Positions 46,551 to 48,258 of a stretch of 64,000 nt of DNA are shown piece after piece. A model generated the notes under the pieces. That model was given only the letters and a program-made list of their open reading frames with translations. It searched no databases and was not told the origin of the DNA. Positions within the stretch are counted from its first letter, which is position 1, and each line of letters starts with the position of its first letter. A program made the translations under genes and the position numbers. Source of the DNA: an uncultured Planctomycetota bacterium (lineage in GTDB: Bacteria > Planctomycetota > Phycisphaerae > Phycisphaerales > UBA5793); the NCBI GenBank assembly GCA_900696685.1, contig CAADHA010000031.1, positions 1 to 64,000 on the forward strand, written 5' to 3'.

Positions 46551-46584
46551 CGCCGGGGGCTAACGCCGGATGCTGGAGAACGAC

Positions 46585-47478
46585 ATGACGACTGCCTCGC
46601 ACTTGTCCGTCGAAGAACATGCACCCAGCGTGCAGCGTTTCGCGCCGGGCAAGGTCAATCTCACACTGGCCATTCTTGGGAAGCGACCTGACGGCTATCA
46701 CGAACTGGAGTCGTGGGCGAGGCAGATCGACCTGCGCGACCGGCTGACCATGCGACTTTCTTCCGAGCCGGGCTTGCAGGTATCCGGACTGATCGAGGGC
46801 GTACCCGACAATGAGGAGAACCTTGTCTGGCGTGCGGCGCAGCGCGTGGCGGACGCGGCGGGCCGTCCGCTGGACGTGGAATTCCATCTGGAGAAGTATC
46901 TGCCTTCAGGCGCCGGTCTGGGCGGCGGGAGCAGTGACGCCGCCGCCACGCTGCTGGGACTCAACGAACTCTGGGGACTCGGCTGGCCCCTTGAGAAGCT
47001 CTACGAGATCGCCGGTCTGCTCGGGTCCGATGTCCCGATGTTCGTCTCCGGGCACTCCGCGATCCTGCGCGGTCGCGGCGAGCGCGTGGAGATACTTAAG
47101 GACTCGTCAAAGTTCTACCTGGTGCTCATCATTCCATCGTTTCCGCTTTCCACTGCGCGAGTCTATGCGCGATGCGAAGTGTCTGCGAGCTTGTCGGGCG
47201 GTCGTGCCCGACCATGGGAAGACGGAGTCAAGGAGAGCCGTGTGCTGGGACCGCTGCTCTTCAATGATCTGGAGCCGGCGGCATTTACATGCGAGCCGAT
47301 GCTGGCGCAGCTTCATGCGGCCTGTGACGGGATCGACGGGCGCTCGGTGCGGCTTACGGGAAGCGGCAGCTCGTTGTTCGCCCTCTTCGATCAACTGGAA
47401 GAAGCGAATGCATGGGCCCGAGCCGTGCGGTCGAAAATCCCCTCTGACGTGCGACTTCAGATTGTGAGTACTTTGTGA
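46585..47478 (+). CDS. ispE: 4-diphosphocytidyl-2-C-methyl-D-erythritol kinase
   Basis: IspE phosphorylates CDP-ME in the MEP pathway (GHMP kinase). The 297-aa product has RFAPGKVNLTLAILGKRPDG near the start, then YHELESW, the ATP-binding LPSGAGLGGGSSDAAATL, GSDVPMFVSG and the C-terminal LTGSGSSLFALF. The start at 46585 is preferred over 46570 because GGAG lies seven bases upstream. spoVG follows after 105 bp, and an ispE-then-spoVG arrangement also occurs in Bacillus with intervening genes. Confidence 0.95.
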   Translation: MTTASHLSVEEHAPSVQRFAPGKVNLTLAILGKRPDGYHELESWARQIDLRDRLTMRLSSEPGLQVSGLIEGVPDNEENLVWRAAQRVADAAGRPLDVEFHLEKYLPSGAGLGGGSSDAAATLLGLNELWGLGWPLEKLYEIAGLLGSDVPMFVSGHSAILRGRGERVEILKDSSKFYLVLIIPSFPLSTARVYARCEVSASLSGGRARPWEDGVKESRVLGPLLFNDLEPAAFTCEPMLAQLHAACDGIDGRSVRLTGSGSSLFALFDQLEEANAWARAVRSKIPSDVRLQIVSTL

Positions 47479-47583: not shown

Positions 47584-48258
47584 ATGAACATCACCGAGAT
47601 TCGCGTCAAGCTCGTCGGAAACGGTCACAACGAAGAGCGCCTGCGGGCATTCTGCAGCGTCACGCTCGACGGTGCCTTTGTGATTCGCGATCTGAAGATC
47701 ATCGACGGGACCAATGGTCCATTTGTCGCCATGCCTTCGCGGAAGCTGTCCGACCGCTGCCCCAAGTGCGGTTGCAAGAATCACCTCCGGGCGAAGTTCT
47801 GTAACGAGTGCGGCGGCCGGCTTGATCCGGGTCGTGCACCGCGCGACAGTGAAGGGCGCGTCAAGCTGCATGCCGACGTGGCGCATCCCATCAACGCGGC
47901 CGGCCGCGAGCAGATTCAGCGTGAGGTCATCGTCGCCTACGAGCGCGAGCTGGAAGCGGCCTCGCAGCCCGGCTATCAGTCGCAGTATGTGGATGCGGAT
48001 ATTGAGGATACCGTCGAGTCGGGGTACGACGATTTCATCTCCGAGATCCGCGAATCGGTCAAAGATCGCCAGGATCGGCGACCGGCCTCGTCGTCCACTG
48101 GTGCCGACCGTCGTCCTCCGCCACGCCCACCGCGTGAGACGGTCAAGCAACCGGTTCATGCACCGTCGCGCCCGGAGAGAGTCGATCGTGAAGCCAAGTC
48201 GGTCTATCCTGCCCAACCGCCGGTGCAGGATGACCCGTTCAGTGCCGGCATCTTGTGA
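47584..48258 (+). CDS. spoVG: SpoVG-family protein with embedded zinc ribbon
   Basis: The 224-aa product starts [14 protein letters not shown] and carries the SpoVG core [30 protein letters not shown] and, later, [19 protein letters not shown]. SpoVG is a small DNA/RNA-binding regulator, usually about 90-100 aa. Here a CPKC (59-62) and CNEC (73-76) four-Cys ribbon, plus about 20 more residues, splits the core between MPSRK and AHPIN. A disordered Pro/Arg-rich tail follows from about residue 120. The zinc ribbon suggests an added nucleic-acid or protein contact. Function in this organism is unknown. Confidence 0.88.

Follow-up and report, generated by a model that had tools for sequence, protein, structure and literature searches.

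The protein encoded at positions 47584–48258 (+) of the window, the whole stretch of 64,000 nucleotides analysed here, is a full SpoVG (PF04026) that carries an insert of 36 residues. The insert has the pattern C-x2-C-x10-C-x2-C and lies between the MPSRK motif on one side and the HPIN motif with its following helix on the other. All 91 planctomycete homologues have the four cysteines, without exception, so that a ribbon in the window protein is far beyond chance. In a large branch of bacteria, SpoVG appears to be used in this form: its binding face has gained a finger, and its tail has a conserved tip. To our knowledge, SpoVG, a global post-transcriptional and transcriptional regulator, has been studied almost solely in Firmicutes and Borrelia.

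The SpoVG core and its four-cysteine insert

The frame starts with the ATG at 47584, its stop codon ends at 48258, and it encodes 224 amino acids; its coordinates and description in the original prediction are accurate. A frame error or an artefact of ORF calling is ruled out, the frame through the insert being common to 91 homologues. The profile PF04026 covers residues 1–120 (E-value 1.6e-24, 86.2 bits, cut-off 29.6) in a match that bridges the insert, and phmmer aligns the protein with 2IA9, 2I9Z and 2I9X in two pieces, residues 1–57 and about 97–125. The score against the SpoVG equivalog of NCBIfam (NF009749), 82.7 bits, is below the cut-off of 108, as expected for an insert-bearing form.

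The sequence hallmarks of SpoVG are present. The N-terminal part of the core (residues 1–57; 47584–47754, +) is defined by alignments with 2IA9 and has strands at residues 3–10, 20–28, 32–42 and 45–49 in the predicted model. It contains MPS followed by the basic doublet R53 K54 (47740–47745, +), conserved in the planctomycete alignment (R53 in 87 and K54 in 89 of 91 sequences). The HPIN motif (residues 101–104) and the C-terminal helix (105–126 in the model) occupy 47884–47961 (+). The core had been predicted to be split by CPKC-x10-CNEC, and this was confirmed: the insert lies between M50-PSRK54 and H101-PIN104.

The putative zinc finger (C59–C76; 47758–47811, +) begins five residues past K54 and is spelled C59-P-K-C62-x10-C73-N-E-C76. 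The length of the linker between the basic doublet and D-x-x-HP was compared in the 268 of 278 loci that passed a filter on the core, some places being present twice. It is 7 residues in the ribbon-less SpoVGs, except for 18 residues at locus L288, and mostly 43 residues in the ribbon form (146 of 248), that is, 36 residues more.

Besides the cysteines, N66 and G77 are invariant in the 91 planctomycete proteins, amid neighbouring columns that vary freely, and K65 is present in 88 of them. In all groups together, the residue just before the conserved asparagine is lysine or arginine in 224 of 231 distinct ribbon proteins, and N66 itself is kept in 225. The mean net charge of the finger ranges from +2.0 to +4.0 between groups (+2.46 in 172 distinct planctomycete proteins); these values are absolute, none of the seven unrelated zinc-ribbon motifs found for comparison being usable. 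Position 69 is basic in just one of 16 proteins from the phylum of genome G426 (record named Vermiphilus).

The matches of the insert to Pfam families DZR (PF12773, 24.1 bits, gathering score 27.3) and Zn_Ribbon_1 (PF13240, 18.4 bits, gathering score 25) are both below threshold, and we describe it as folding like a zinc ribbon, not as a member of either family. The consensus of RanBP2-type fingers is C-x(2-4)-C-x3-N-x6-C-x2-C, with a tryptophan two residues before the first cysteine. C59, C62, N66, C73 and C76 follow this spacing; the tryptophan position is occupied by D57 in the window protein, and no tryptophan is among the five commonest residues of this column in the planctomycete alignment. 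The Pfam profile zf-RanBP gives no match with the window protein up to an E-value of 1. From the four invariant cysteines in a finger arrangement, we infer that zinc is bound.

AlphaFold2, supplied with 60 aligned sequences of homologues with the window protein first, predicts a confident finger on an intact SpoVG core. In blocks of ten residues, pLDDT is 88–95 in the core sheet (79 in the loop 11–20), 95–97 in the finger (residues 61–80), 89 and 74 in the loop 81–100, 81 at 101–110 and 96–97 at 111–130; order is thus lower in the loop next to the finger than in the finger itself. A zinc-free monomer was modelled, with a pTM of 0.55. Foldseek against the PDB gave ten significant matches, all to the SpoVG crystal structures 2IA9, 2I9X and 2I9Z, and VIA-align superposed 85 residues of the model on chain F of 2IA9 at 2.1 Å (Z 11.3).

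The finger alone superposes on RanBP2-type/NZF fingers over about 25–31 residues, at 0.8–2.5 Å in the better matches. These include the RNA-binding fingers of RBM5 (2LK0), FUS (6G99) and ZRANB2 (3G9Y), with weak scores (Z about 2.3–2.7), together with Ran- and ubiquitin-binders, which have the same fold and reach Z 3.3. The predicted likeness, with Z about 2.3–3.3, is too weak to claim kinship.

Distribution and evolution of the finger

PF04026 is found in 233 of 392 Planctomycetota genomes, and the finger is present at all 91 Planctomycetota loci that were read first (the 30 best-scoring, 60 spread over families, and the window). SM50, a relative of Rhodopirellula, is among the carriers (L178). 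A recent local insertion is ruled out, the finger being phylum-wide and found beyond the phylum. A further 19 genomes with odd or multiple matches contain more ribbon copies together with weak, divergent, ribbon-less PF04026 proteins (for example L126–L128) that have neither the AMPS nor the HPIN motif; these were treated as another subfamily and left out of the counts. Some planctomycetes also have a second, divergent ribbon-SpoVG paralogue (L124 and L125, in genomes G071 and G120).

The GTDB species genomes were scanned for the DNA pattern of MPxxK-x4-CxxC-x10-CxxCG, which gave at least 119 stretches, at least 88 of them ribbon SpoVGs. Judged by the record titles of the matches listed, 71 of the 88 are of Planctomycetota type and 12 belong to Omnitrophota, and the labels Auribacterota, Desantisbacteria, Vermiphilus, 'PVC group AB1' and Bacteroidales occur once each; as the pattern requires the ribbon, this number is uninformative on its frequency. 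The Bacteroidales-labelled protein (L169, JAIXLE010000258.1) groups with Gemmataceae in the SpoVG tree and thus probably comes from a mislabelled or mixed bin.

In the Omnitrophota, SpoVG is present in 115 of 145 genomes, and 22 of the best 30 loci have the finger while eight do not. In addition to the ribbon form, many Omnitrophota genomes have another SpoVG-like gene that is short and lacks the ribbon (L275 was read). In the phylum of G426, SpoVG is present in 28 of 35 genomes, with the finger at all 16 loci read, G426 included. Bacillota have SpoVG in 208 of 299 genomes, and every match listed is about 234–249 nt long, which corresponds to a protein without the insert; the finger is absent from the 11 Bacillota loci and the one Bdellovibrionales locus that were read. 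Classical SpoVG had been predicted to be devoid of the ribbon, which holds for these 12 loci. The survey by phylum, which covered Planctomycetota, Omnitrophota, the G426 phylum and Bacillota, with one Bdellovibrionales locus, thus agrees with the original prediction on two counts: the ribbon is not present in all SpoVGs, and its cysteines are fully conserved in relatives. The ribbon thus characterises Planctomycetota and allied phyla; it is not universal, and it is not restricted to planctomycetes. Omnitrophota and Auribacterota are placed in the PVC group by the NCBI taxonomy.

Ribbon SpoVGs are also encoded by 13 of 14 pattern-matching viral contigs of IMG/VR (L252 and L254–L265), two pairs of which are identical in the stretch shown. 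Of the 70 ORFs of these viral stretches, SpoVG included, some encode terminase, major head and portal proteins. Matches to SpoVG were found in 13 of 50,697 records of named phages and in 10 of 72,556 plasmid records; the phage matches are ribbon-less, and the spans shown for phages and plasmids, 150–261 nt, leave no room for the insert.

The available text of Gupta et al. 2012 (PMC3444138) describes a conserved signature indel of 32–36 amino acids in SpoVG as specific to Planctomycetes. The window insert, 36 residues over a 7-residue linker in a conserved SpoVG region, fits this size, and judging by the protein, the conserved region, the size and the phylum, and by the figure's legend alone, the two are almost certainly the same. 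The restriction to planctomycetes stated in that text is contradicted by 22 of the 30 best Omnitrophota loci, all 16 loci of the G426 phylum, Auribacterota, Desantisbacteria, AB1 and 13 of the 14 viral contigs. The words zinc and cysteine are absent from the text of the article available to us, and no paper on SpoVG with a zinc ribbon or zinc finger was found among the open-access papers searched. The insert has been published as a taxonomic marker and apparently never recognised as a zinc finger. A taxonomic indel becomes a testable domain, one that is not planctomycete-specific and that has phage-borne copies.

The gene immediately upstream of spoVG in the window, separated from it by 105 nt, is ispE, encoding CDP-methylerythritol kinase (46570–47478, +; TIGR00154, 191.8 bits, cut-off 138.7). 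The same arrangement is found at 158 of the 171 Planctomycetota loci with enough upstream sequence, at 40 of 40 Omnitrophota loci, at all 16 loci of the G426 phylum and at six of six others (three places, each counted twice). It is found at none of the 12 control loci (Bacillota and Bdellovibrionales) and none of the 10 phage loci. Among 63 genes scanned downstream of spoVG in planctomycete loci, those for TPP enzymes are the commonest (N-terminal domain in 12 of 63); the other families are scattered, among the 25 of 43 families listed.

These neighbours bear on the earlier suggestion of a metal-controlled regulator, in which zinc loading or oxidation of the cysteines would alter nucleic-acid binding. 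Such a metal or redox switch is conceivable in principle, given four cysteines next to the binding pocket. However, no metal-homeostasis gene was found linked to spoVG among the neighbours identified (ispE upstream, TPP enzymes and scattered families downstream, with 25 of the 43 families of the 63 genes listed), and CxxC-CxxC four-cysteine zinc fingers are usually tight structural sites. None of the results obtained favours sensing. We consider the switch quite unlikely, and this part of the original prediction is not upheld.

The history of the finger was followed on a tree of IspE, which is independent of SpoVG, because the resolution of the tree of SpoVG alone (80 columns; four changes of state, controls included) is too low to place the gain in time. 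The IspE tree has 74 rows and was obtained by a quick search with SH-aLRT supports only, Planctomycetota being subsampled. A single change of ribbon state suffices on it. All eight Omnitrophota without the ribbon group as a single clade (SH-aLRT 99), nested with ribbon carriers in a clade of 13 rows (SH-aLRT 99), itself inside further ribbon Omnitrophota. This nesting indicates that the finger is ancestral in this set and was lost once, and that the protein survived the loss. Locus L288, with its linker of 18 residues and no cysteine, branches first in the ribbon-less clade, and this linker looks like a half-decayed finger. On this tree, the loss in Omnitrophota appears stepwise, nested and single.

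As the finger is removable, its invariance elsewhere implies selection on it, and the comparisons indicate that it is old, modular and kept by selection. The insert could also be phylogenetic baggage, an old insertion without a function of its own kept by inertia, and it was first described merely as a taxonomic indel in the accessible part of PMC3444138. We find this highly improbable: none of the 91 proteins departs from the cysteines, N66 or G77, although the columns around them vary freely, and the one loss in Omnitrophota shows that loss is possible, yet the finger is otherwise kept.

Another ispE is present in the genome that contains the window, on contig C147. It is 65–71% identical to those of four genomes of the same genus; the ispE of the window is about 36–43% identical to these four and 40% to the C147 copy. 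There is also a second ruvB, on contig C75. Outside its own genome, the ten proteins that best match the window RuvB (58–63%) all come from families of the same class that have SpoVG. SpoVG is absent from the 60 relatives searched (genus, family and order). The second copies and the SpoVG-less relatives indicate that the window contig, C31, was probably mis-binned from another planctomycete, which leaves the finding of the finger unaffected.

The tail and its conserved tip

The original prediction of a long disordered tail holds for residues 127–224 (47962–48255, +), a low-confidence, mostly disordered region in the AlphaFold2 model (pLDDT mostly 53–75) with one predicted helix at 145–164, but the very end is a conserved tip, FSAGIL (48238–48255, +). 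The pattern F-x-x-G-[ILVM] was counted in the last 12 residues of distinct planctomycete ribbon proteins with complete C-termini. It is present in 71 of 79 long tails (0.17 expected from shuffled tails) and in seven of 89 short tails (0.21 expected). None of 59 proteins from other sources has it (nine from phages, 31 from Omnitrophota, 16 from the G426 phylum and three others). The tip of the long planctomycete tails, F-[GS]-x-G-[ILV], is a new observation, and we propose it as a candidate docking peptide.

The possibility that the tip is a tag common to many proteins was rejected. Two scans with DNA patterns, of 199 and 392 genomes, gave six and 22 matches, mostly SpoVG; the 22 comprise 14 SpoVG C-termini, one open frame of 508 amino acids (an amidohydrolase with an acidic tail) and seven frames that are short or without a stop. 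A control with the reversed pattern gave isolated matches as well. These scans indicate that the tip is essentially SpoVG's own. In an SsnA-like amidohydrolase of genome G213 (L354:1504–3021, −), the tail is long and acidic, and its last residues, DDPFGAGIF, have the SpoVG tip. Docking of the tip on SpoVG's own core was also discarded: an AlphaFold run on a short-tailed carrier of the tip gave no confident placement (pLDDT 46–58 for the last approximately 20 residues).

Possible roles of the finger and related systems

In S. aureus SpoVG, according to the available text of Jutras et al. 2013 (PMC3688583), K50 and R51 are each required for DNA binding, and residues 66–71, in the helix after HPIN, set DNA specificity. 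K50/R51 map to R53/K54 of the window protein and residues 66–71 to its residues 105–110, and the finger sits exactly between these counterparts. The insert had been predicted to lie where SpoVG binds nucleic acid or dimerises, and the mutants described in that text agree with a place in the nucleic-acid-binding region. Listeria SpoVG is dimeric and binds several RNAs in vitro and DNA weakly (Burke and Portnoy, PMC4959528, available text); between them, the accessible parts of the two papers (PMC4959528, PMC3688583) report that SpoVG of Listeria, Staphylococcus and Borrelia binds RNA and DNA in vitro.

The computations show the insert with its invariant cysteines, the intactness of the SpoVG fold, the operon with ispE, the distribution and a single nested loss. 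The position between the two elements, together with the positive charge, leads us to read the finger as an additional contact with nucleic acid. We give about an even chance to the full reading, in which the four-cysteine finger would be such a contact, with a structural zinc, in a vertically inherited, ispE-linked SpoVG, and the tip of the tail would dock a partner. Confidence in the nucleic-acid contact is moderate because protein-binding fingers share the fold. The window protein would then be the usual SpoVG that Planctomycetota and several allied phyla have inherited vertically and encode beside ispE; an ancestral insertion would have put a compact four-cysteine finger between the two elements that touch nucleic acid. 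The finger would hold its zinc structurally, and its basic surface, with an invariant asparagine and a near-invariant lysine or arginine, may form a second contact surface beside the SpoVG pocket, which would widen or re-aim the RNA/DNA specificity of SpoVG. In the long-tailed planctomycetes, the disordered tail would present the C-terminal docking peptide to its partner.

It is possible, although doubtful, that the finger is instead structural or serves protein docking: zinc would clamp the long loop, and the surface would bind a protein or the other SpoVG protomer. The finger matches nucleic-acid binders no better than Ran- or ubiquitin-binders, so a protein-binding role fits equally, and its closest folds include the Ran- and ubiquitin-binding RanBP2/NZF fingers. 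Moreover, the SpoVG studied in PMC4959528 is dimeric, according to its available text, and the finger joins two core elements and is flanked by the less ordered loop 81–100. The location between two mapped DNA-binding elements and the positive charge nevertheless favour nucleic acid, and the core does without a clamp, as the ribbon-less clade shows.

The nucleic-acid reading can be extended, more speculatively and with a rather low probability, to a two-handed RNA regulator of PVC-group and allied bacteria. The SpoVG dimer and the RanBP2-like finger would jointly read RNA, and the tip would recruit a fixed partner (e.g. an RNase, RNA polymerase or a chaperone) as the tip of SSB does; the tip-less ribbon SpoVGs of phages could compete for targets without recruiting the host partner. 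The ribbon-less Omnitrophota clade and the 7-residue linker of Firmicutes provide a natural design for testing the contribution of the finger.

The window protein resembles the SpoVG of B. subtilis, S. aureus, L. monocytogenes and B. burgdorferi in the core fold, the MPS-R/K-R/K doublet, HPIN and the C-terminal helix, and differs from this classical form by the 36-residue zinc-finger insert and the long tail with its conserved tip. With the bacterial double zinc ribbon and Zn_Ribbon_1 (PF12773, PF13240), the finger shares a CPxCG-x2-N-x6-FCxxCG-like pattern, but it consists of one finger, set into a loop within a different domain. The RanBP2-type/NZF fingers of ZRANB2, RBM5, FUS, Nup153 and TAB2 are similar in their C-x2-C-x3-N-x6-C-x2-C spacing and in superposition, whereas the window finger has neither the preceding tryptophan nor a match to Pfam zf-RanBP, and convergence on such a tiny fold is possible.
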